Assembly (NCBI GenBank): GCA_021784755.1
Contig: JAJYHM010000060.1
Location: 1-41,374 of the forward strand
Direction: 5' to 3'
DNA length: 41,374 bases
From: Pseudomonadota bacterium
Lineage (GTDB): Bacteria; Pseudomonadota; Gammaproteobacteria; Acidiferrobacterales; Acidiferrobacteraceae
Part shown: positions 13,716 to 25,817 of the stretch, piece after piece
How positions within the stretch are numbered: position 1 is the stretch's first letter
How the letters are laid out: every line of letters starts with the position of its first letter
Position numbers and translations under genes: made by a program
Notes under the pieces: generated by a model
The model's input: the letters and a program-made list of their open reading frames with translations, nothing else
The model's database searches: none
What the model was told of the DNA's origin: nothing

Positions 13716-14231
13716 TTATGCCAAGGCGCTGGTACCGATAAGCGCCAAAAAGGCCTCTATAATCGCGGCCGGGGGCGGTGGGCAGCCGGCGATGGTGATA
13801 TCGACGGGGATCACTGCGTCCACTCTACCCACGGTGGCGTAATTCGCATGAAAAATACCGCGGCCCATTGCGCAATCGCCGAGAGCCAGCACGCGCTTAG
13901 GGTCAGCTAGGGCTTCATAGGTCATCAGTAATGCGGGGACCATATGACGCGAAACGGGTCCTGTGACCATGAGAATATCAGCGTGCCGGGGGCTCGCCAC
14001 AAAATGTATGCCAAGACCCTCCAGGTTATAGTAGGGATTGTTGACGGCATGAATCTCGAGTTCGCAGCCGTTACATGACCCGGCATCGACATGGCGCACG
14101 GCAAGGGCTCGACCGAGTTGACGGAGGAGCGCGCGGCTTGATTCGTAAGCGTCCTGAGCGAAACGTTCGGGAACAGATCTGGGGATAGTGACGATACCTG
14201 TGGCGATAAGGCGTCTGATCAGTTTGTGCAT
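13716..14231 (-). CDS. HyfI/NuoB-like small subunit of Ehr-type complex
   Basis: The 171-residue protein is the electron-transfer small subunit of complex-I/hydrogenase-4-like complexes. All four cysteines for the proximal [4Fe-4S] cluster are present: Cys53 and Cys56 in GSCNGCE, Cys120 in GDC, and Cys150 in GCPP. The N-terminal 40 residues are basic and lack a signal peptide, as expected for a cytoplasmic-face subunit. It is the last gene of a six-gene minus-strand operon, 7 bases after the large-subunit gene, with GAGG 5 bases before its ATG. Intact cluster ligands mean electrons can still pass through this subunit, although the partner large subunit has lost its NiFe site. Confidence 0.9.
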   Translation of the reverse strand: MHKLIRRLIATGIVTIPRSVPERFAQDAYESSRALLRQLGRALAVRHVDAGSCNGCELEIHAVNNPYYNLEGLGIHFVASPRHADILMVTGPVSRHMVPALLMTYEALADPKRVLALGDCAMGRGIFHANYATVGRVDAVIPVDITIAGCPPPPAAIIEAFLALIGTSALA

Positions 14232-14238
14232 ATGAGCC

Positions 14239-15786
14239 TCAGAGATCGTGACCGCTATAGGCGAGATTGAATGATGTATTGATCAAGGGGAAATCAGGTA
14301 CGAGGTTTCCGATCACAGCCTGCTCAAGTAATGGCCAATTCTGCCAAGAAGGGTCGTGGATGTGGACGTGATGTAAGCCATCGGGGGCCGCTCTTTCGAT
14401 AGCAACGAATACTTCTCCGCGCCAACCTTCAACACAGCCGAGCCCCTGCTTCCCCGTGGCCATCGGGGGCGCACTGATCAGCGGGCCTTCTGGTAAATCC
14501 GCCAGGATGTGGCGCATCAGACGTAGCGACTCAGAGATTTCATCGAAGCGCAGCGCAACGCGGGCCGCCACATCGCCTTGCCTGCGGGTAGCGATCCGAG
14601 GGGCTAGCGTGTCATAAGGGGGACTTGGGAATTCCGTACGTATATCGCGAGCAAGGCCGCTTGCGCGCGCCGCGAGTCCTACCCCGCCCAAAGCTTCAAT
14701 TCGCGCGGCCGTAAGGCACCCTATACCGAGAAAGCGTTCCTGCAGACCCGCGTGGTCGGCCAATATGTCCTGAAGAATACGCACGGCCTGTTCCAGGTCG
14801 TTGCATTCGTGTTCCATCTGCGCCCGATCCTGGTGAGTGAGGTCATGCGCTACCCCGCCGGGAACGATAGCATCCATTAAGTATCTGTGACCCCAAAGGC
14901 GCTGGTGCGTCTGTATCCAGCGCTCCTTCAAAAGCGAAAACTGGGTCTGGCCAAAGGCGAGGCCACCATCATTGCTCAAAGCGCCGATATTCCCCAAATG
15001 ATTGGCGATGCGCTCACGCTCCAAGAGCAGGCCTCGCAACCACTCAGCTCGTGCGGGTACCACGCAACCACTCATAGCCTCGACGGCCATCGCATAGGCC
15101 CAAGTATAGGCGACCGTGCTGTCGGCACACATACGACCCGCCAGCCGTGCACCTTCGATAAGCCCAAGGGATTCAAACCGCTTTTCAACACCTTTATGGG
15201 CATAAGCCAAACGCTCTTCCAGGCGCATGATCTCATCGCCGACGATAGCTAGCCGAAAGTGCCCTGGCTCAATCGTGCCGGCGTGTACGGGACCGACACC
15301 CATTTCGTGGATGCCGTCGCCTTTTACCCTGACAAACGCGTAACTCTCCTCGTGGCCACCAGGCGTTGCGGCCGATACCGTGAAATCGCGCCGTAGAGGA
15401 AATTCTCGGGCCAGCCACGCCCCATGGCGGAGCCAGGGGCGCGTATCGGACGCACCAGACGATGCTCCCAAGAGGTCGTAAATTGCCCGCTGTCGACGGA
15501 TAGCTGCGGGAAAAATATCGCTTACGTCAGGGTAATTCGGGTTCGTCTCATCCATGCCGTAGCTAATCCAGAGCCAGTGGTCGGCAAACAGCAATACGGC
15601 GTGTACCATAAACTCGGCCTGTTCGGGCCGTGCGTCAGTCGCCCAAAGTGCGATCAGGCGCCCAGTGGCCTCGCGGCATTGTAAAAAGACGTCACGCCAT
15701 TGGCTTTTGTCCACGCGTGCGCGATAGGTAGGCGCTATCCCTTTTACGGATTCCCATGGAATGTCCTGCCAAAGCGGTGTTTTCAT
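14239..15786 (-). CDS. HyfG/NuoCD-like large subunit lacking the NiFe site
   Basis: The 515-residue protein joins a NuoC-like domain (about 1-150) to a NuoD/HycE-like domain (about 160-515), like the large subunit of formate hydrogenlyase. True group 4 hydrogenases carry CGxC in the N-terminal half and DPCxxC at the C-terminus. Here the first site reads RMCADSTVAY (Cys220 kept, second Cys replaced by Ser223) and the C-terminus reads INTSFNLAYSGHDL with no Cys. NiFe cannot be bound in the normal way, so this is not a hydrogenase. Other family blocks such as EMGVGPVHAGTIEPGHFR and EERLAYAHKGVEKRF are kept, so the fold and the contact with the small subunit look preserved. That pattern fits Ehr complexes, whose reaction is unknown. 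Confidence 0.88.
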   Translation of the reverse strand: MKTPLWQDIPWESVKGIAPTYRARVDKSQWRDVFLQCREATGRLIALWATDARPEQAEFMVHAVLLFADHWLWISYGMDETNPNYPDVSDIFPAAIRRQRAIYDLLGASSGASDTRPWLRHGAWLAREFPLRRDFTVSAATPGGHEESYAFVRVKGDGIHEMGVGPVHAGTIEPGHFRLAIVGDEIMRLEERLAYAHKGVEKRFESLGLIEGARLAGRMCADSTVAYTWAYAMAVEAMSGCVVPARAEWLRGLLLERERIANHLGNIGALSNDGGLAFGQTQFSLLKERWIQTHQRLWGHRYLMDAIVPGGVAHDLTHQDRAQMEHECNDLEQAVRILQDILADHAGLQERFLGIGCLTAARIEALGGVGLAARASGLARDIRTEFPSPPYDTLAPRIATRRQGDVAARVALRFDEISESLRLMRHILADLPEGPLISAPPMATGKQGLGCVEGWRGEVFVAIERAAPDGLHHVHIHDPSWQNWPLLEQAVIGNLVPDFPLINTSFNLAYSGHDL

Positions 15787-15801
15787 CGGATCTTTAAGTC
15801 C

Positions 15802-17250
15802 CTAGCGGTGTATCATTCCCGCCACATGCGTATACCAAGACGCAAGGATCGGTGGGATATAGAGCCCCAACATCAGCACTAAACCTAAATGAATGAATGA
15901 GGGGATAAGTGACGGAGGGCTCGGCGCCTTGGGCACGTTACTGGCCCCGAACACCATAGATTGGGTCTTGCCAAAAATGGCGGCGAAGGCGACCCCCAGG
16001 CCCAAGATGAGGAATGGTAAGGACCAAGGTTCCTGGTGAATAGCTGCCGTCAGAATAAGAAACTCACTGGTAAATACGCCAAACGGCGGAATGCCAAGAA
16101 TTGCAAGGCTGCCTAGCATCAAACTCCAACCCATCCCCGGATTACGTTCCAAGAGACCGTGAATTTGGTCGATTTGCTGGGTGCCGGCTTTTTGCGCTAC
16201 GTGGCCGCTGCTAAAGAATAGCGAAGATTTGGTGAGGGAATGAACCGTCATGTGGAGGAGGGCGGCAAAGCTCGCAAGCGGTCCGCCCATCCCAAAGGCA
16301 AACGTGGCAAGCCCCATGTGTTCAATGGACGAGTAGGAAAACAGCCGTTTTATGTCTCGCTGCCGCGAAAGGGAGAAGGCAGATACGAGCAGCGAAATCA
16401 AACCAAAGCCCATCATGAGTGCTCCTGGCCAATTGTCGTGCAATGAGCCATCGGCTAGGACCTTGAAGCGGACAATCGCGTAGAGCGCCACGTTCAAAAG
16501 CAGTCCCGAAAGAATGGCGGATATGGGTGTCGGACCTTCTGCGTGCGCATCAGGGAGCCAGTTGTGCATGGGGACGAGACCGACCTTGGTTCCGTAGCCA
16601 ACTATCAGAAAAACGAAGGCCACGCTGACGATCGTCGGATCAAGATGTCCTTTGATCTGGTTGAGTCGCGTCCACAGTAGACCGTTATGGGGGCCGATAA
16701 CACTGTGGGCCGAGAAGTACAGCAAAATAGTGCCAAACAGTGCGAAGGCTATGCCCACTCCGCAGAGAATAAAATATTTCCATGCTGCCTCGAGGCTCGC
16801 CGGCGTTCTGTATAGGCTAACAAGCAAAGCCGTGCTAAGTGTTGCACCTTCCATCGCCACCCAGAGGATGCCAATGTTGTTGGTCAGGAGTGCAAGGAGC
16901 ATGGTGAATGAAAACAGTTGGTACATGCTGTGATAAAGGCGCAGGCGCGCGGCTGTAACCCGGCCCGAATAACGTTCGATCCGCATATAGGCCCTGCTGA
17001 ATATCGCAGTAGTCATAGCGACGAAGGCAGTGAGATCTACCAAAAAAATATTAAATGGGTCGACAGAGAACTGTGCGTCGTGAGTAAGCCAAGGGCCGTG
17101 GACGATAATGCGTTGTGTGAGGACTATGGCTGCCGCTAATGTCGTCAGGCTAAAGGCCGCGTTCGCAATAAAAGCGTGCTCGCGATGTCCAAAGAGCCCC
17201 AAATAAGCGGCGCCTATGAGTGGGATGGCCAAGATCCAAAGCAGAGACAT
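15802..17250 (-). CDS. hyfF: HyfF-like antiporter subunit (NuoM/N type)
   Basis: This 482-residue membrane protein of about 14 helices belongs to the Mrp-antiporter-like subunits that drive ion pumping in complex I and energy-converting hydrogenases. It keeps the key residues: Glu134 in VAMEGATLS (helix 5) and Lys222 in GTKVGLVPMHNWLPDAHA (helix 7), so pumping capacity appears intact. The preceding stop and this start are interlocked (TAGTGATG); GAGGA 6 bases upstream favours the ATG at 17250 over the GTG at 17253. The product fits HyfF by length and by its position after HyfE. No HyfD homologue is present in the operon. Confidence 0.9.
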   Translation of the reverse strand: MSLLWILAIPLIGAAYLGLFGHREHAFIANAAFSLTTLAAAIVLTQRIIVHGPWLTHDAQFSVDPFNIFLVDLTAFVAMTTAIFSRAYMRIERYSGRVTAARLRLYHSMYQLFSFTMLLALLTNNIGILWVAMEGATLSTALLVSLYRTPASLEAAWKYFILCGVGIAFALFGTILLYFSAHSVIGPHNGLLWTRLNQIKGHLDPTIVSVAFVFLIVGYGTKVGLVPMHNWLPDAHAEGPTPISAILSGLLLNVALYAIVRFKVLADGSLHDNWPGALMMGFGLISLLVSAFSLSRQRDIKRLFSYSSIEHMGLATFAFGMGGPLASFAALLHMTVHSLTKSSLFFSSGHVAQKAGTQQIDQIHGLLERNPGMGWSLMLGSLAILGIPPFGVFTSEFLILTAAIHQEPWSLPFLILGLGVAFAAIFGKTQSMVFGASNVPKAPSPPSLIPSFIHLGLVLMLGLYIPPILASWYTHVAGMIHR

Positions 17251-17252
17251 CA

Positions 17253-17906
17253 CTAATCCTCGTGTCTGTCTAGGTAGTTCAGCTCGAGGCTGTCGAACTG
17301 CTCGCGTATATGAAAGAAGAATACGCCGAGGATAAATACGCCGACGATGACATCTAGGGCGATTCCGAGTTCTATGACCATGGGCATTCCGTAGGTGACA
17401 CTCGTTGCAGCGAATATCAGGCCATTTTCGAGCGCCAAAAAGCCGATCACTTGGGAAATGGCCGTTGCGCGCAGGATCATCATGAGAGAGGACAGAAGAA
17501 CGCTCGCTAAAGCGATGCCCAAGGTATTGTGGTTGATGGTGCCGGCGAGCTCCGACAGGGGGAGGGAGGCGTTAAACGCGAAGATCACAAGCCCAAGACC
17601 TAGGAGCATGATGGTGGGGATGTAGAGGATGGTCTCGCGATCCCACTGGACTTGGAGCTTGCGAACCAAGCGGCGCAAGAGCCAGGGAACTGCGATCACC
17701 TTAAGGATAAGATTCAGACCTGCCGAAAAATAGAGCTTGGGCTGGTCGGTTCCATAAGCGACGACGCCTATGCTAAGGCCAAGGATGAGGCCTTGGAGGG
17801 CGTAGAGATTGATGAGATTGGCGAGACGCCTTTGGGAAAGCATGGCAAAGGCCACGAGCAGAAAGAGGGCGGCCAGCATATTGATGGCTTGAGCAAAGAG
17901 AGGCAT
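17253..17906 (-). CDS. hyfE: HyfE-like membrane subunit (NuoK-related)
   Basis: The 217-residue protein has about six transmembrane helices. The first three resemble NuoK, and the remainder is the extension typical of hydrogenase-4 component E. Recognisable parts are NLINLYALQGLILG, GLNLILKVIAVPWLLRRL and FLALENGLIFAATSVTYGMP; the last contains the conserved Glu (LALENG) that corresponds to a proton-path residue in NuoK. It starts 3 bases after the HyfC gene and runs into HyfF with an overlapping stop/start, so the three are translated from one message. Confidence 0.9.
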   Translation of the reverse strand: MPLFAQAINMLAALFLLVAFAMLSQRRLANLINLYALQGLILGLSIGVVAYGTDQPKLYFSAGLNLILKVIAVPWLLRRLVRKLQVQWDRETILYIPTIMLLGLGLVIFAFNASLPLSELAGTINHNTLGIALASVLLSSLMMILRATAISQVIGFLALENGLIFAATSVTYGMPMVIELGIALDVIVGVFILGVFFFHIREQFDSLELNYLDRHED

Positions 17907-17909
17907 GGC

Positions 17910-18857
17910 TCATGCCCCCAAAAGAAAATGCACAAGGAGGCCGAGTACGGCCAGCATAAAGGCAGTACCGAGGAACTCCGGAATGCGAAAGAGGCGCATT
18001 TTGGCAAGGAGCGTCTCAAGGAGTGCCAATCCGGCGCCCGCCGCTATGACTTTGACGACAAAAATGGCCAGCGCCAGAGGAAAGTGTGCCCAATGCCCGC
18101 TTCTTGCAATGCCCCAAGGAACGAACAAGGCTATACCGATAGCGATGTAGGTGAGAAGTTTGATGGCGCTGGCCCATTCGATTAATGCCAAGTAGCGGCC
18201 TGAGTATTCGAGATCGAGAGCCCCGTGAATCATGGTTAATTCGAGGTGCGTGTCCGGATTGTCGACGGGGATGCGCCCATTCTCGGCTAATAACACCATG
18301 GTAAAGGCCACCGCCGCGAAGGCCATGCTCGGATAGAGGACAAGGCGTGCTGCGGTAAGGCTCATCACGATAACTGTAAGCGACGTGGAATGACTGATGA
18401 GGGCGGGTGTAAAGAGCACGATGAGTAGCGCCGGTTCTGCCAAAAAACCTACCAACATCTCACGCCTAGCGCCCATGCTGCCAAACGCTGTGCCCACGTC
18501 CATGGCGGCAAGGGCGGCAAAAATGCGAGTAAAGGCAAAGATTCCGACCAGGGCGATGGCGTCTGCGACCGGTGCGAACGGAAGCCCTGTAGAAAACATG
18601 GGCACAATCGCCCCCGCAAGCGCCATACCGCCAAATAGGATATAGGGCGCGATTCGAAACAGCAGTGAGGCCTCGTGTGCCATGACCGGACTCTTGTGGA
18701 AAAGTTTGCGCAGGACACGATAAGGCTGGAGGAGTCCGGCACCGGATCTGTTGGCAAACCAAGCGCGGCATTGGCCGATCCATCCGGCAAGCAGCGGTGC
18801 TGCGCCTACGACGAGGACGAATTGTGTGAGTTGCAGCGGTATTTCGCGGGCGTTCAT
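17910..18857 (-). CDS. hyfC: HyfC-like membrane subunit (NuoH type)
   Basis: This 315-residue, roughly eight-helix protein is the NuoH/HyfC-type subunit that connects the hydrophilic module to the antiporter subunits. Family blocks include QPYRVLRKLFHKSP near residue 45, the acidic loop PVDNPDTHLELTMIHGALDLEYSG (split here as PVDNPDTHLELTMIH and ALDLEYSG), and Glu/Asp-rich junction residues that contact the quinone-like region in complex I. It overlaps the HyfB gene by the four bases ATGA, indicating coupled translation. Confidence 0.9.
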   Translation of the reverse strand: MNAREIPLQLTQFVLVVGAAPLLAGWIGQCRAWFANRSGAGLLQPYRVLRKLFHKSPVMAHEASLLFRIAPYILFGGMALAGAIVPMFSTGLPFAPVADAIALVGIFAFTRIFAALAAMDVGTAFGSMGARREMLVGFLAEPALLIVLFTPALISHSTSLTVIVMSLTAARLVLYPSMAFAAVAFTMVLLAENGRIPVDNPDTHLELTMIHGALDLEYSGRYLALIEWASAIKLLTYIAIGIALFVPWGIARSGHWAHFPLALAIFVVKVIAAGAGLALLETLLAKMRLFRIPEFLGTAFMLAVLGLLVHFLLGA

Positions 18858-20890
18858 GGTGCGAGCACCAGCAGAACCAGGAGGGTCGCAAAGGAGTACA
18901 GAAGATAGATGGCAATGCGGCGTCGACGCAGAAGCGCCACAAGTCCCGTCATCCAGCTCACGGCCCGCGCCAGGGGTAGGTAGAGTCCGTGCCAGGTGAG
19001 ATCTTCGATCTCGCTTCGATAAACTGGCGTCTGGTCATCTGCTGTGGGTAGGGTGCGGCGTATGCGTAGAAACGAAACAAAGATATGACTGATGGGCTGA
19101 CCAAATCCTTCCGCCGTGTCTTGCATTCTGGCGGTCAGGGATGGGTAGCCGCAGTTCCAGATCGCGCTGCGGCGAATGGGTTTACGAAATAGGATACGTA
19201 CGGCCGTAAAGGTCATAAGGACAGTCAGGCCAATGGCCCCGAGAAAGACCCAAGGGATGTAGCTTGCGTGCGCGACGTCAATGGGTGCGAGCAAAAACCA
19301 GTGGTGCGGTGAGTGGCCATGAGCGTTTGCCGGGAGACCCGCTATGAGTAACGCTAAAGTCGGCTTGAATATCCGAATGACGACCGCCGGGAAAAGACCC
19401 AAGAGCAGACAGCCCAAGGCCAAGTAGGTCAGCGCGGCCCGTTCCCAGGGATCGCCATCGATGCGGGTAGCGGGGCTTTTTTGGGGCTCGCGGGCGCGTC
19501 CCAGAAAAACGATGCCATAGAATTTCACCATGACGTAAGCGGCTAGCCCGGCGACGAGAGCCACGACCGCAGCTCCCAGGGGCACCGCCATGCTGAGGTA
19601 GGGGTGAGGAAACGAGGTCGCACCCAAAAAGGCTTGCAGCAACAGCCATTCAGAGACAAAACCATTCAGGGGCGGTACGCCGGCGATTGCGAGAGTCCCT
19701 AAGAGCATTGTAAAGGCAACCCAGGGCATACGATGAATAAGGCCGCCTAGTTTTCCGAGGTGGCGTTCACCGGTTGCGTGAAGGACGGATCCGCTGCCCA
19801 AAAATAGCAGACTCTTAAAGAAGGCATGATTGAGGCAATGATAAAGCGTGGCGGTCAGCGCCAAGGCTGCGAGCACCGTCATGTGGTAGGACAGAAAAAG
19901 GATCGTGAGCCCAACACCGGCCAGGATAAGCCCCATGTTTTCTATGGAGGAGTAGGCCAAAAGGCGCTTCATATCGCTTTGGACGGCTGAGTAGATGGCG
20001 CCAAATAAGGCTGTCATAAGACCAATCAGGAGAGTCGTTACCCCCCACCACCAGACTTGAGCATGGAGCAGATCAAAAACCACCCGCAAAATCCCATAGA
20101 CGCCGAGCTTGAGTAAGACACCGCTGAGAAGCGCGGATATGGGGGAGGGGGCTACCGGGTGGGCCTCAGGCAACCAGACATGTAATGGTATAAGCCCGAT
20201 TTTTGCGCCGAATCCGAATAGGGCCAGGAAGAACACCGCACTGGCAAGGCCTGTAGGCAGAGTACTGTCCCGCATGGCGTGAAAGGTATACCCGGCCCCG
20301 ATGCCGTGATGCGCCGAGGCTTGCATGATAGCAAAAGCCAACAAGATGGCGAGCGCCCCCACATGCTCGATCAGGAGGTATAGGAAACCGGCCTTCCGCA
20401 CCGCCACTTCCTGATGGTCGGTTACCACCAAGAAGTAGGAGGAAAGCGCCATCGTTTCCCATGCCACCATAAAAACATAGGCGTCATCAGCCAAAAAGAA
20501 GAGGGCGATACTGGCCAATAGAATGTGGTACTGAAGGGCCATGCGCGCCCCCGCTGGATAGCGGGCGTGTTTGAGATAGCCGGTCGTATAGAGAGAGACG
20601 GAAAAAGTGGTGGCACCAAAAAGTATAATGAAGATCGCAGAAAGAGCGTCTAGCCGTAAATGAAAAGGCAGCCCAGGGAGGCCAAGGGGGAGCACACAAA
20701 CTTGCGGTGCCCTCGTTATCGCCAGAAAACCGGCCACACACAGGGCCAGACTCCCCAAGGAACCGACAAAAAAGAGTGAGCGAATAACTTCAGGATAGCG
20801 GGAAACCGCGACGCTTGCCAAAGCGAGCGCGAGCCATAGCACCAGGGTTCCTAGGACAATTTCCAGCGGGAGCCCGAGCGATCCACTCAT
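18854..20890 (-). CDS. hyfB: HyfB-like antiporter subunit (NuoL type)
   Basis: The first operon gene encodes a 678-residue membrane protein, the large antiporter-like subunit with a C-terminal extension as in NuoL/HyfB. The pumping residues are kept: Glu145 in MVAWETMALSSY and Lys230 in FGAKIGLIPLHVWLPEAHP. A TTG at 20893 is directly followed by an ATG at 20890; I prefer the ATG, which has a weak GGA 7 bases upstream. The gene is transcribed away from a kfrA-like gene, and about 100 bases of AT-rich DNA with a long palindrome separate the two. No hyfA, hyfD or hyfH, no formate dehydrogenase and no hydrogenase maturation genes accompany the operon. Confidence 0.9.
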   Translation of the reverse strand: MSGSLGLPLEIVLGTLVLWLALALASVAVSRYPEVIRSLFFVGSLGSLALCVAGFLAITRAPQVCVLPLGLPGLPFHLRLDALSAIFIILFGATTFSVSLYTTGYLKHARYPAGARMALQYHILLASIALFFLADDAYVFMVAWETMALSSYFLVVTDHQEVAVRKAGFLYLLIEHVGALAILLAFAIMQASAHHGIGAGYTFHAMRDSTLPTGLASAVFFLALFGFGAKIGLIPLHVWLPEAHPVAPSPISALLSGVLLKLGVYGILRVVFDLLHAQVWWWGVTTLLIGLMTALFGAIYSAVQSDMKRLLAYSSIENMGLILAGVGLTILFLSYHMTVLAALALTATLYHCLNHAFFKSLLFLGSGSVLHATGERHLGKLGGLIHRMPWVAFTMLLGTLAIAGVPPLNGFVSEWLLLQAFLGATSFPHPYLSMAVPLGAAVVALVAGLAAYVMVKFYGIVFLGRAREPQKSPATRIDGDPWERAALTYLALGCLLLGLFPAVVIRIFKPTLALLIAGLPANAHGHSPHHWFLLAPIDVAHASYIPWVFLGAIGLTVLMTFTAVRILFRKPIRRSAIWNCGYPSLTARMQDTAEGFGQPISHIFVSFLRIRRTLPTADDQTPVYRSEIEDLTWHGLYLPLARAVSWMTGLVALLRRRRIAIYLLYSFATLLVLLVLAP

Positions 20891-20940
20891 CAACGCATCC
20901 GCCTCAAAGCCATCGCCCGCCTGTTTTAAGGAAATCTAGC

Positions 20941-20996: not shown

Positions 20997-21476
20997 ATGC
21001 CACGTACTGGGGTTACGAGAAGTCAGGTGTTCGAGGTTGCCGATCGCTTGGCTCAAAGTGGCTTACCTCCTACGGTGGTCACGGTTCGAGGCGATCTTGG
21101 CAAGGGGAGCTTTACTACAATCAACCAGCATCTCAGCGAATGGAAGGCCTTGAAGTGGCAGGCGGATGGGCAATCCACGACCATACCGCCGAGGGTTGAA
21201 GCCAAGATGAACGAATTGTTGGCGACACTTTGGACGTTCGCGTCTCATGAGGCCAACCAAAATATCGATAAGATCCGTGAAGCGGCCTTGCGGGACGTCG
21301 CGGATTTTCAGAGTCAGCTTCAAGATGCGGGCCAACAACTCGAGGCTCTTATCAAGGAGCGACAAGAACTTCAGGCGCAATTGGCGAAGGCCCATGCGGT
21401 AACTGAAGAATTGGGTCGGCAAGTCGTACAATTCGCGCAAATAACGTCCGCACGTGACGCAAAAGACGGCGGGTGA
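20997..21476 (+). CDS. KfrA-like DNA-binding protein
   Basis: The 159-residue protein begins with the KfrA N-terminal DNA-binding domain: VTRSQVFEVADRLAQSGLPP, then TVRGDLGKGSFTTINQHLSEW (family block ending in HLSEWKA), residues about 7-55. The rest, from about 70 to 145, is a Gln/Glu/Ala-rich coiled coil, as in plasmid KfrA but much shorter. KfrA proteins are autorepressors of plasmid backbone genes; finding one divergent from a chromosomal respiratory-type operon suggests it became the operon's local regulator or marks the region as plasmid-derived. The ATG has no Shine-Dalgarno sequence. Confidence 0.8.
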   Translation: MPRTGVTRSQVFEVADRLAQSGLPPTVVTVRGDLGKGSFTTINQHLSEWKALKWQADGQSTTIPPRVEAKMNELLATLWTFASHEANQNIDKIREAALRDVADFQSQLQDAGQQLEALIKERQELQAQLAKAHAVTEELGRQVVQFAQITSARDAKDGG

Positions 21477-22481: not shown

Positions 22482-24773
22482 ATGGTTGTAGAAAATGGTT
22501 TAAGTAGCGTCGAGGCGCAGCAGCGTCTGGAGAAATACGGGCCCAACGCCATCGAAGAAGTGCCACAGAAGATGTGGTGGCTATTTCTACGAAAACTCTG
22601 GGATCCCGTGCCATGGATGCTGGAGATCACGTTGATTCTCGAGATGGTTCTCGGCAGGTTGGTGGAGGCCTTGATCATCGGTTCGCTGCTGCTTTTCAAC
22701 GCCGCCCTCGCATTCCGTCAGGAACATAAGGCCCAGAACGCATTGCATGCGCTAAAGAAGCGCCTCCATGTCAAAGCGCGCGTATATCGCGATGGGCAGT
22801 GGCGCAGCATCGCCGCTCATGACCTCGTGCCCGGCGATCTGGCTCATGTCCGTGTCGGGGACATTGTGCCGGCAGACATGGTTCTAACAGACGGCCACGT
22901 CCTCGTGGATCAATCGGCCCTCACTGGGGAATCCATGCCGGTCGACCGGACAGTCGCCTCGGTGGTCTATTCCGCTTCGATCATTCGTCGGGGCGAAGCC
23001 AGCGGGACAATAATCGCAACGGGCGCCCTAAGCTATTTTGGCAAGACCGCCGAACTGGTCCGGACCGCTGGATCGAAAAGCCATCTCGAAGAACTTGTGT
23101 TAGGCATTGTGCGCTATCTCGTGATCATGGATGGGTTTCTGGTAGCTGCCATTTTGATTTATGCGACCTTAGAGCATATGCCTTTGGCAGAAATCCTTCC
23201 TTTTGCCCTTATTCTTTTTGTGGCGTCGGTACCGGTTGCCCTTCCGGCGACGTTTACCTTGGCCACCGCCATGGCCTCCCTGGGCCTCGCGCAGCGAGGC
23301 GTTCTGGTAACGCGTCTCGCTGCTATAGAGGAAGCGGCGGCCATGAGCGATCTTTGCACCGATAAAACGGGGACCCTGACCCAGAATAGGCTCAGCTTAG
23401 TGGCGAGTAGCCCCATGGGCGACGCGACCGCGGTCGAGCTTTTGTCCATGGCATCCGTTGCCAGCGATGATGCCACGCAAGACCCCATTGATCTGACGAT
23501 ACTGGGCGCGGCGCAGGACCAAAAGATAACGATACCGCAACGGCTCGTTTTTACACCGTTTGATCCAGCCACAAAACGCTCTGAGGCCTCGTTACAGGTA
23601 GAGGGGGTGCCATGGGTGGCCATGAAAGGTGCGCCTCAGGTCATTGCCGCGCTGACCAAGACAGAGGATTGGGGACGAATGGCTGAAGACCTAGCGTTCC
23701 AGGGCGCGCGAGTCCTTGCGGTAGCGGCCGGGCCCGTGGGGGCACCGCATTTTCTTGGTCTCTTGGCGTTGGCGGACCCCATCCGCCCGGATGCGCCGCA
23801 GACTTTGCGGGCTCTCCAGGGGTTTGGTGTGCGTGTGCGGATGGTGACTGGGGATAATGTAGCCACCGCAAAGGCTGTCGCCACAACGCTAGGATTGGCA
23901 GATACTGTCTGTGACCGATCCGATGTTGGCAGAGACTGCTCGGTCTACGCGGGAGTATTCCCGGAAGATAAATTTCACTTGGTACAGCGCCTGCAGCAGC
24001 AACACAAAGTCGTCGGTATGACCGGGGATGGTGTAAATGATGCGCCCGCCTTAAAACAAGCGGAGGTGGGGATTGCAGTAGAGAGCGCCACCGATGTCGC
24101 CAAAGCGGCGGCGAGCTTGGTTTTGACGAATCCCGGCCTCGCCGGGGTCGCAGACGCTGTAGAGACTGGTCGGCGAGTCTACCAGAGGCTGCTGACATAC
24201 ACCCTTAATAAGATCATAAAAACCTTCCAGGTGGCGTTGTTCTTGAGTTTCGGGCTATTGGTCTTTCGGCGCTTCGTTATCACCCCGATTCTTGTCCTCT
24301 TACTTCTCTTTGCCAATGATTTTGTCACGATGTCGCTGGCTCGTGATCATGTACGGCCTTCGCGCGCACCAGATCGGTGGGATATTCATGCGCTCATATT
24401 TTCTTCGCTTGTGATGGCAATGGCGTGGATTGCGTATATTTTTGGTGTTTACCTGGTCGGGCGCGCAATGGGCTTGCCACTACCTGCCGTGCAGACCCTG
24501 GATTTCCTGGGTCTTGTGTTCTCGGGCCTCGCGAATGTCCTGCTCGTGCGCGAACGCGGCCATATCTGGAGCTCCCGTCCAGGCGCATTGCTGCTCTGGG
24601 CGATTATGGGGGATATCGTCATAGTCAGCCTTCTGGCACAAAATCGCCTCCTGATGGCACGAATCCCGCTGACTGTAACCACTGGATTACTCTTCGCGAC
24701 CATCCTATATACATTAATATTGGATCAGGTGAAGGTGCCCATGCTGCGGCGACTGTCAAAAGCAGAGACCTGA
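22482..24773 (+). CDS. P3A-type plasma-membrane H+-ATPase
   Basis: The 763-residue protein is a P-type ATPase of the proton-exporting P3A group. In order it has an N-terminal GLSSVEAQQRLEKYGPNAI segment, the actuator motif TGES (148-151), the ion-binding helix PVALP (251-255), the phosphorylation site DKTGT (Asp294), MKGAPQ of the nucleotide domain, and the hinge TGDGVNDAP (514-522). Ten helices are expected. PVALP and overall size match fungal/archaeal-like H+ pumps rather than Ca2+ or heavy-metal pumps; there is no N-terminal metal-binding domain. In an acidophile it would export protons at the cost of ATP; that role is inferred. The ATG is preceded by GCGGGGG. Confidence 0.9.
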   Translation: MVVENGLSSVEAQQRLEKYGPNAIEEVPQKMWWLFLRKLWDPVPWMLEITLILEMVLGRLVEALIIGSLLLFNAALAFRQEHKAQNALHALKKRLHVKARVYRDGQWRSIAAHDLVPGDLAHVRVGDIVPADMVLTDGHVLVDQSALTGESMPVDRTVASVVYSASIIRRGEASGTIIATGALSYFGKTAELVRTAGSKSHLEELVLGIVRYLVIMDGFLVAAILIYATLEHMPLAEILPFALILFVASVPVALPATFTLATAMASLGLAQRGVLVTRLAAIEEAAAMSDLCTDKTGTLTQNRLSLVASSPMGDATAVELLSMASVASDDATQDPIDLTILGAAQDQKITIPQRLVFTPFDPATKRSEASLQVEGVPWVAMKGAPQVIAALTKTEDWGRMAEDLAFQGARVLAVAAGPVGAPHFLGLLALADPIRPDAPQTLRALQGFGVRVRMVTGDNVATAKAVATTLGLADTVCDRSDVGRDCSVYAGVFPEDKFHLVQRLQQQHKVVGMTGDGVNDAPALKQAEVGIAVESATDVAKAAASLVLTNPGLAGVADAVETGRRVYQRLLTYTLNKIIKTFQVALFLSFGLLVFRRFVITPILVLLLLFANDFVTMSLARDHVRPSRAPDRWDIHALIFSSLVMAMAWIAYIFGVYLVGRAMGLPLPAVQTLDFLGLVFSGLANVLLVRERGHIWSSRPGALLLWAIMGDIVIVSLLAQNRLLMARIPLTVTTGLLFATILYTLILDQVKVPMLRRLSKAET

Positions 24774-25370: not shown

Positions 25371-25817
25371 GTGTATAAAAATATCTTGGTGGCGATTGAC
25401 GGCAGTAATACCTCCACATTGGCGCTTCGGGAGGCCATTAACGTGGCCAAGGAACAATCGGCGCGATTGCGGCTCGTTCATGTGATCGATATGTCCCCGT
25501 TTACCACGGCAGATACTGGCCTCATAGACGATGCTAAGCTGGAAGAGGTCCTATTCAAGGCAGGGCAGACTATCATGGATGAGGCAGTGGGTGAGGTGCA
25601 GAAGGCCGGTCTCAAGGTCGAGACGATATTACCTCAGAACCTCAATCAGCGTATTGGCACGGTTATCGTGGACGAGGCGAAGCGCTGGGGCGCGGATCTC
25701 ATCGTGATAGGTACTCATGGTCGACGTGGTATACAGCATTTCGTTTTAGGCAGCGTGGCCGAGCAAGTGTCTCGCGCCGCAACCCATCCCGTGCTGTTAA
25801 TCCCGAGTCGACGATAG
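25371..25817 (+). CDS. universal stress protein, UspA family
   Basis: The 148-residue protein is a single-domain universal stress protein. It begins MYKNILVAIDGSNTSTLAL and ends with the ATP-binding signature GTHGRRGIQHFVLGS (G-x2-G-x9-G-S form), so it belongs to the ATP-binding class. Such proteins help survival under starvation, acid or respiratory stress. The start is the GTG at 25371, preceded by GAGGGA. It follows the H+-ATPase at a distance, and both fit acid-stress physiology, but the 600-base gap argues against one operon. Confidence 0.93.
   Translation: MYKNILVAIDGSNTSTLALREAINVAKEQSARLRLVHVIDMSPFTTADTGLIDDAKLEEVLFKAGQTIMDEAVGEVQKAGLKVETILPQNLNQRIGTVIVDEAKRWGADLIVIGTHGRRGIQHFVLGSVAEQVSRAATHPVLLIPSRR

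Follow-up and report, generated by a model that had tools for sequence, protein, structure and literature searches.

An Ehr complex with its NiFe site apparently replaced by a conserved pocket, and a possible inorganic-carbon connection among its relatives

What does a hydrogenase-like membrane complex do when its large subunit lacks the ligands of the NiFe site? The question is raised by contig JAJYHM010000060.1 from a member of the Acidiferrobacteraceae, analysed at its full length of 41,374 nucleotides (hereafter the window), in which six contiguous minus-strand genes, hyfB-C-E-F-G-I (window 20893-13716), all have open frames. A sequence-only reading had assigned them to a complex of the energy-converting hydrogenase-related (Ehr) type in which hydrogen chemistry is unlikely, and this assignment agrees with the loss of ligands across 133 related large subunits. 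Judged from its conservation, this is an intact complex of the known Ehr group rather than a hydrogenase impaired by mutation. The kind of complex is already known; new here is the neighbourhood context in its relatives. At a probability of roughly 0.4, I propose that this intact Ehr, its NiFe site replaced by another selected pocket, has its task in inorganic-carbon or pH economy. The six subunits, whose proposed families are confirmed by NCBIfam and Pfam, and the residues of the membrane arm are as follows.

18854..20893, minus strand: HyfB, distal NuoL/HycC-type antiporter subunit, 679 residues (NF005086, 780.8 bits against a cut-off of 667)
20456-20458, minus strand: HyfB Glu146, conserved in an alignment of 133 HyfB
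20201-20203, minus strand: HyfB Lys231, conserved in the same alignment of 133 HyfB
17910..18857, minus strand: HyfC, NuoH/HycD-type anchor (PF00146)
17253..17906, minus strand: HyfE, small membrane subunit, 217 residues, 142 sequences aligned
15802..17253, minus strand: HyfF, second antiporter subunit (NF005045, 806.7 bits against a cut-off of 543), 148 sequences aligned
16849-16851, minus strand: HyfF Glu135, conserved (148 aligned)
16585-16587, minus strand: HyfF Lys223, conserved (148 aligned)
14239..15786, minus strand: HyfG, large subunit, NuoC+NuoD-like, 515 residues, without the NiFe ligand set
13716..14231, minus strand: HyfI, small subunit with one [4Fe-4S] site (PF01058, 4.6e-28)

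HyfB and HyfF thus exceed the curated NCBIfam cut-offs for hydrogenase 4 subunits, in agreement with Pfam, while HyfE matches NF008556 (hydrogenase 4 membrane subunit, 4.9e-23) under the curated cut-off and has no Pfam match. HyfI passes the cut-off of one NuoB subfamily in NCBIfam and is closest to MbhJ and HycG. The best solved relatives of HyfG are HycE of formate hydrogenlyase (FHL; 7z0s, 3.1e-58) and the membrane-bound hydrogenase (MBH) of P. furiosus (6cfw, 4.1e-30), and a Foldseek search with its AlphaFold model also places 7z0s_E first (5.9e-33). This model has a mean pLDDT of 77.9, but residues 143-197 and 499-515 score below 50, and the geometry of the pocket was therefore not taken from it.

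The main finding lies in the large subunit. When HyfG is aligned with E. coli HycE and HyfG, RMCADS (218-223) stands against RVCGIC and the C-terminal AYSG against CYSC, the four NiFe cysteines corresponding to Cys220, Ser223, Ala509 and Gly512. Three of the four are gone, as had been noted from this copy, and just Cys220 is left.

15118..15135, minus strand: HyfG Arg218-Met-Cys-Ala-Asp222-Ser223, where the first NiFe CxxC would be
14242..14280, minus strand: HyfG C-terminus NTSFNLAYSGHDL, where the second CxxC would be
15268..15270, minus strand: HyfG Glu173, equivalent of MbhL Glu21 in the alignment to 6cfw, invariant (133/133)

I counted residues over 133 sequences of the window's own group (type A), each of at least 440 residues, with the NiFe-type large subunit of locus L113 excluded; contigs L083-L085 are counted twice, and the picture is unchanged for the 130 sequences without duplicates. 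The first NiFe position (residue 220) is Ser in 99, Cys in 24, Ala in 9 and Val in 1; the second is Ser in 116, Thr in 12, Ala in 3 and Cys in 2; the third is Ser in 92, Ala in 30, Asn in 8 and Thr in 1, with 2 gaps; and the fourth is Gly in 130 and Ala in 1, with 2 gaps. Taken together, 107 sequences have no cysteine at these positions, 26 have one and none has two or more, which makes the loss a stable trait of the group. Nor did any of the 16 type-A sequences in a first set carry more than one, and the idea that this copy is merely mutated is not borne out. Because cysteine occurs at position 220 in just 24 of 133, Cys220 is variable, confined to part of the group, and not a retained functional ligand.

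Other residues of the pocket hardly vary at all. His168 and Asp222 are found in 133/133, His176 and Arg218 in 132/133, and Asn503, Tyr510 and Asp514 in all 131 sequences that are not gapped there (2 are). Glu173, His168, His176, Arg218, Tyr510 and Asp514 also occur in E. coli HycE and HyfG, but Asp222 does not. MbhL Glu21 is described in the consulted part of PMC7684303 as key for proton reduction and as absent from MBS, the archaeal membrane-bound sulfane sulfur reductase. On this pattern the HyfG pocket is best described as a selected, different site and not as decay. HyfG ends where HycE continues into its C-terminal extension, at which HycE is cleaved; since the NiFe-type copy of L113 ends there as well, the missing extension is no marker of metal loss.

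The remainder of the presumed electron and ion path is retained. All four cluster cysteines of HyfI that the sequence-only reading had listed are present, and they are invariant in 141 of 141 aligned sequences.

14064..14075, minus strand: HyfI Cys53-x-x-Cys56, hydrogenase-type spacing
13872..13874, minus strand: HyfI Cys120, placed by alignment
13782..13784, minus strand: HyfI Cys150, placed by alignment

The pumping Glu and Lys of both antiporter subunits were likewise correctly recognised, although their numbering was one too low and has been corrected in the list above. Within the type-A alignments they are retained at 97% or more, as are the acidic residues of HyfC, which also has the conserved loop DNPxTHLELTMIHxAxxLEYS. 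With antiporter residues, cluster and pocket all conserved, the complex is probably an ion-translocating redox module, as had been suggested. It would combine two parts of a group-4 (Hyf/FHL-like) hydrogenase, the proton-pumping membrane arm and a peripheral arm with one cluster. By analogy with MBH and complex I, electrons may be brought by a soluble low-potential carrier that docks on HyfI; the HyfI cluster would hand them to the HyfG pocket, and a proton-coupled reaction there would drive charge via HyfC into HyfB and HyfF. Such redox-ion coupling in Ehr would be expected from what is known of the complex I superfamily.

Known families were considered in turn. Group-4-type large and small subunits stand together with complex-I-type membrane subunits, which is the Ehr arrangement. 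A [NiFe] group 4 hydrogenase or FHL would have the four NiFe cysteines, the C-terminal extension and a maturation protease, all lacking here; the quinone-binding His38 and Tyr87 of Nqo4 are replaced and there is no NADH arm, as opposed to complex I; the three-Cys proximal cluster from a shortened loop, which marks MBS, is absent; and no DabA, the mark of DAB/DAC, occurs among the window open reading frames (ORFs) scanned, that of the genome being at C72. With E. coli queries in tblastn, FdhF, HycB, HydN (HyfA-like), HyfH, HycI, HypA and HypB had no match in the window (HyfA itself and HypC-F were not queried), in line with the earlier remark that ferredoxin-like, formate dehydrogenase and maturation genes are missing. 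HyfD is also missing, there being just two antiporter-type ORFs in the window; tblastn with HyfD was uninformative, as it matches other antiporters.

A quick tree of large subunits with 165 type-A rows, in which branches are long and deep joins unsure, separates type A from E. coli HyfG and HycE, from NuoC and from the genome's own NuoD, and also from a second Ehr group, type B. The window falls within a 14-row clade of its own family. (L083-L085 and L156 are not in the tree, and its L245 row should be disregarded, as it represents a second, divergent copy from that locus.) Searching the window's own genome gave three relatives: the window Ehr, a type-B Ehr at C64, and a NuoD at C45, with ORFs resembling NuoB, C and E next to it. 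True complex I therefore sits elsewhere in the genome (G000:C45), and I reject the idea that the operon is one of its modules. The type-B Ehr (G000:C64; L071 7898-15058) has its small subunit fused to a ferredoxin-like part, reads RVSGVGSV at the site, and is followed by a DUF190 gene, as found in 10 of 11 type-B loci.

Within the order, 40 of 57 genomes have a match at 1e-10 and, by identity, 36 have type A and 12 type B; in an evenly drawn sample of the class, type A occurs in 52 of 370 genomes at 1e-60. Hosts of type A include Thiobacillus, Sulfuricella, Burkholderia, Cupriavidus and Rhizobium, among them the laboratory strains Cupriavidus metallidurans CH34 and Rhizobium johnstonii 3841, and relatives are found on 61 plasmid records.

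The Ehr complexes of Geobacter, Sulfobacillus and comammox Nitrospira, compared here by their descriptions (in excerpts of PMC7894505, PMC4378227 and PMC10284858), likewise combine group-4-like large and small subunits with antiporter-type subunits. For Sulfobacillus and Nitrospira the same excerpts state that NiFe motifs are absent, and ion translocation coupled to a redox reaction has been suspected for Ehr in print. Type A as found here consists of the six genes B-C-E-F-G-I and, where the first CxxC would be, has Asp222. The same gene set makes up hyfBCEFGI of A. ferrooxidans (DN052_15040-15065), likened by gene content, whose large subunit is non-hydrogenase by HydDB and of which, in the part of PMC7735108 consulted, no subunit was identified on H2. 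With E. coli FHL and hydrogenase 4 (HycE 7z0s; hyf operon) the window shares the fold, the subunit order, the small-subunit CxxC and the pocket Glu and His, but it is without NiFe ligands, HyfA/D/H/J, formate dehydrogenase, a nearby maturation protease and the C-terminal extension.

A NiFe-type large subunit of group 4 that retains the full set of four cysteines (RICGVC, CYSC) was met once, on the betaproteobacterial contig L113 (1788-3569), directly upstream of an Ehr operon without them and adjoined by a HyfH-like match. It is the sole four-cysteine sequence in the set and shows 31% identity with the window HyfG and 37% with the closest type-B sequence; it shares GPIHAGIIEPGHF, NKSF, Tyr510 and the lack of a C-terminal extension with the window HyfG, differing by its cysteines. 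Two Ehr-like large subunits less than about 15 kb apart were seen in L112 (both type A), L146, L245 and plasmid NZ_LR594673.1 (L254), where a 4Fe-4S binding protein gene follows one of them.

What the complex may do is suggested by its neighbours in relatives. I examined 29 type-A loci of the order, 80 named loci, 49 from the class sample and 36 from a phylum sample, calling neighbour genes by homology weighting, as longest-ORF calling proved unreliable. SulP transporter genes lie near the operon by tblastn in 3/29, 12/80, 3/49 and 1/36 of these sets, respectively (4/49 class loci by Pfam, which adds L210). A same-strand SulP gene that adjoins the operon or is one gene removed from it is found in 12 of the 165 type-A rows of the tree, a distribution that takes at least 10 changes. 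In the 52 class-sample genomes, SulP is within 10 kb in 4 (G214, G390, G412, G417) against 0.52 expected (P 0.002), and is a same-strand neighbour in 3 (gaps of 242, 359 and 228 bases) against 0.03 expected. This test is partly post hoc, SulP having been noticed in the order and named loci before it was counted in the class sample, and the chance expectations here and below assume uniform placement and ignore contig ends. The control family PF00999 gave none within 10 kb of HyfG among the matches listed. RuBisCO is within 40 kb in 6 of the 28 type-A genomes that have it (G040, G049, G172, G363, G394 and G416, from four families) against 1.29 expected (P 0.002), and within 10 kb in 2 of 28 against 0.33; 17 of 198 genomes with weak RuBisCO matches (E >1e-90) were left out. 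The distances from HyfG to RuBisCO, PF00999 and PF00484 matches were taken from listings by eye, as was the DabA overlap.

Loci of Thiobacillus and Sulfuricella bring together SulP, Ehr, CsoSCA-like and/or gamma-carbonic anhydrase (CA)-like genes, CbbO-, CbbQ- and CbbR-like genes (named from VWA, AAA-type and LysR matches under curated cut-offs and from position) and RuBisCO. The CsoSCA-like protein lies within about 2.5 kb of the operon in six loci (L057 7235-8365, L059, L060 10154-11248, L106, L126, L142). It is free-standing, of about 350 residues, with Cys51-x-Asp53-x-Arg55, His111 and Cys121 in all six aligned. It falls far under the TIGR02701 cut-off, and Pfam CsoSCA_cat is narrowly passed for L126 and not for L060, which makes it a distant relative of CsoSCA. 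A structural model of it, based on three sequences, was too poor (50.6) to be used. The L142 copy is 69-73% identical to those of the order set, while the HyfG of the same loci are just 44-46% identical, so that CsoSCA-like gene and Ehr would have been joined more than once. Gamma-CA-like genes occur in five loci; in L240 one precedes hyfB at a distance of 13 bp and itself follows genes for a CitMHS-type transporter and a STAS protein. Elsewhere in six of the 52 Ehr genomes, seven SulP genes are 103-1188 bp from a PF00484 beta-CA, which favours bicarbonate as a SulP substrate.

SulP beside beta-CA (PF00484 proximity): G067:C42, G171:C41, G174:C1 (two), G271:C3, G376:C89, G417:C2

The recurrent SulP, CA-like and RuBisCO neighbours suggest a role in inorganic-carbon or pH balance, in which the complex would work beside a bicarbonate-type SulP transporter or a carbonic anhydrase. 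In the literature search, the one link found between a NiFe-less Ehr and SulP or inorganic carbon was a note on A. caldus, whose hyfBCEFG, likened here by gene content, lies beside a beta-CA, with carbon-fixation genes near the core copy and both copies taken for hydrogenases (in the excerpt of PMC3826726). A text search of PMC10880623, on carbon toolkits, gave no occurrence of hyf or hydrogenase.

Several observations weigh against a carbon role. Ehr presence is independent of RuBisCO (28/52 vs. 153/318, p 0.46), which gives no support to a strict tie to autotrophy, and of DabA (16/52 vs. 96/370 overall), with no sign of an avoidance of DabA. In none of the 52 genomes is HyfG closer than 10 kb to a PF00484 carbonic anhydrase (one in G049 is about 11.5 kb away, among RuBisCO genes), and a beta-CA linkage to Ehr is accordingly rejected. 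The majority of loci have no inorganic-carbon neighbour, and none of six plasmid regions read (e.g. Rhizobium) has an annotated SulP or CA. The window and its own clade show no SulP or CA-like neighbour, its genome is without SulP, and that genome already has DabA near RuBisCO, the latter at three places. SulP proteins, moreover, are able to carry sulfate or dicarboxylates. The carbon role is thus suggested as a lead for a subset of relatives, extended to the window by homology alone.

It is doubtful whether one can go further and regard type-A Ehr as a third complex-I-derived inorganic-carbon machine beside cyanobacterial NDH-1MS and DAB (comparison drawn from an excerpt of PMC13144422). All have a complex-I-type antiporter arm, and some relatives of the window have CA-like neighbours; the window differs in having no CA gene beside the operon and a conserved redox cluster. 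The complex would then hydrate CO2 or retain bicarbonate at the expense of proton-motive force or low-potential electrons, in concert with SulP and CsoSCA- or gamma-type CAs, and in the SulP-less host of the window it would act on CO2 alone.

Alternatively, though I consider this unlikely, the complex may serve as a general pump under ion or pH stress, its neighbours being there by coincidence. No neighbour is more frequent in the class and phylum sets than a small helix-turn-helix gene directly before hyfB (14/49 and 10/36 loci; 0/80 named loci), also carried by 4 of the 6 plasmid regions; such cassettes would fit a stress function. So would the spermidine-synthase-like gene that 18 of the 80 named loci, mostly of Betaproteobacteria, have near the operon (L097 4027-4851, for instance). 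The repeated SulP linkage and the invariant redox cluster and pocket argue against it. The small gene (L201 3681-3953 and relatives) has a conserved GRGVRLK-like tail.

A formate dehydrogenase encoded elsewhere could also feed HyfI, with the complex conserving the energy. Excerpts of published work propose such a link for Margulisbacteria (PMC6349859), Geobacter (PMC7894505), A. ferrooxidans (PMC7735108) and vent Epsilonproteobacteria (PMC3958643). For type A it is rather improbable, as tblastn of 195 loci found FdhF-like genes near just 4, NuoF-like near 1 and NuoE-like near 0, and the window has none for formate dehydrogenase, for which the rest of this genome was not searched. HycI, HypA and HypB were found in 0 of the 195 loci, and HycI in 0 of 206.

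That HyfG matches NuoD models under their NCBIfam cut-offs (NF004739, 3.4e-57) and that its model also matches the NuoCD fold might point to a quinone-reactive mini complex I. The position of Nqo4 Tyr87, however, is Gly or Ala in 133/133, and the His38 stretch reads hydrogenase-type IEPGH (residues as given in the consulted part of PMC7684303), which leaves little room for this explanation. Still less can be said for a sulfane-sulfur reductase like archaeal MBS (6u8y), the proximal cluster itself cleaving polysulfide. NiFe cysteines and quinone residues are lost in both (same excerpt), and some hosts are sulfur oxidisers by name (Thiobacillus, Sulfuricella); but HyfI has CNGC with hydrogenase-type spacing and four cysteines instead of the shortened three-ligand motif, the Glu21 equivalent is invariant where MBS has none, no ferredoxin-like subunit is encoded, and Burkholderia, Cupriavidus and Rhizobium are also among the hosts. 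A decayed hydrogenase, for which nothing but the missing ligands speaks, is refuted by six open frames and a pocket strongly conserved across 133 ligand-less sequences.

Other neighbours of the operon include a possible regulator, with a relative in 9 of 29 order-set loci.

20997..21476, plus strand: divergent KfrA_N-type DNA-binding protein (PF11740, 1.2e-22)

Upstream of the operon are a P-type ATPase of the plasma-membrane H+-efflux type (window 22482-24773; TIGR01647 above cut-off) and a universal stress protein (window 25371-25817). A single 786-aa ORF at window 3799-6159 matches DoxX and an NDH-2-type pyridine nucleotide-disulphide oxidoreductase. In relatives, the Ehr operon of Methylovirgula plasmid pHY1 (L251) is near an operon for F0F1 ATP synthase that includes AtpI/AtpZ-type genes, and in L184 SulP adjoins HyfF-HyfG in a rearranged or badly called operon that shows no HyfB, C or E in the vicinity. 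Further neighbour clusters taken up as candidates turned out to be MetG, an ApbC/Mrp-like ATPase, DUF1275 and DNA polymerase III.

Type A is widespread, in 52 of the 370 sampled class genomes, although papers call the function of Ehr not known (as stated in excerpts of PMC10284858, PMC4378227 and PMC10432482). The conserved pocket and the recurrent carbon neighbours give rise to a hypothesis that is open to simple gene deletions, and they may help to explain how the complex I fold found new uses once its metal or quinone site was lost.

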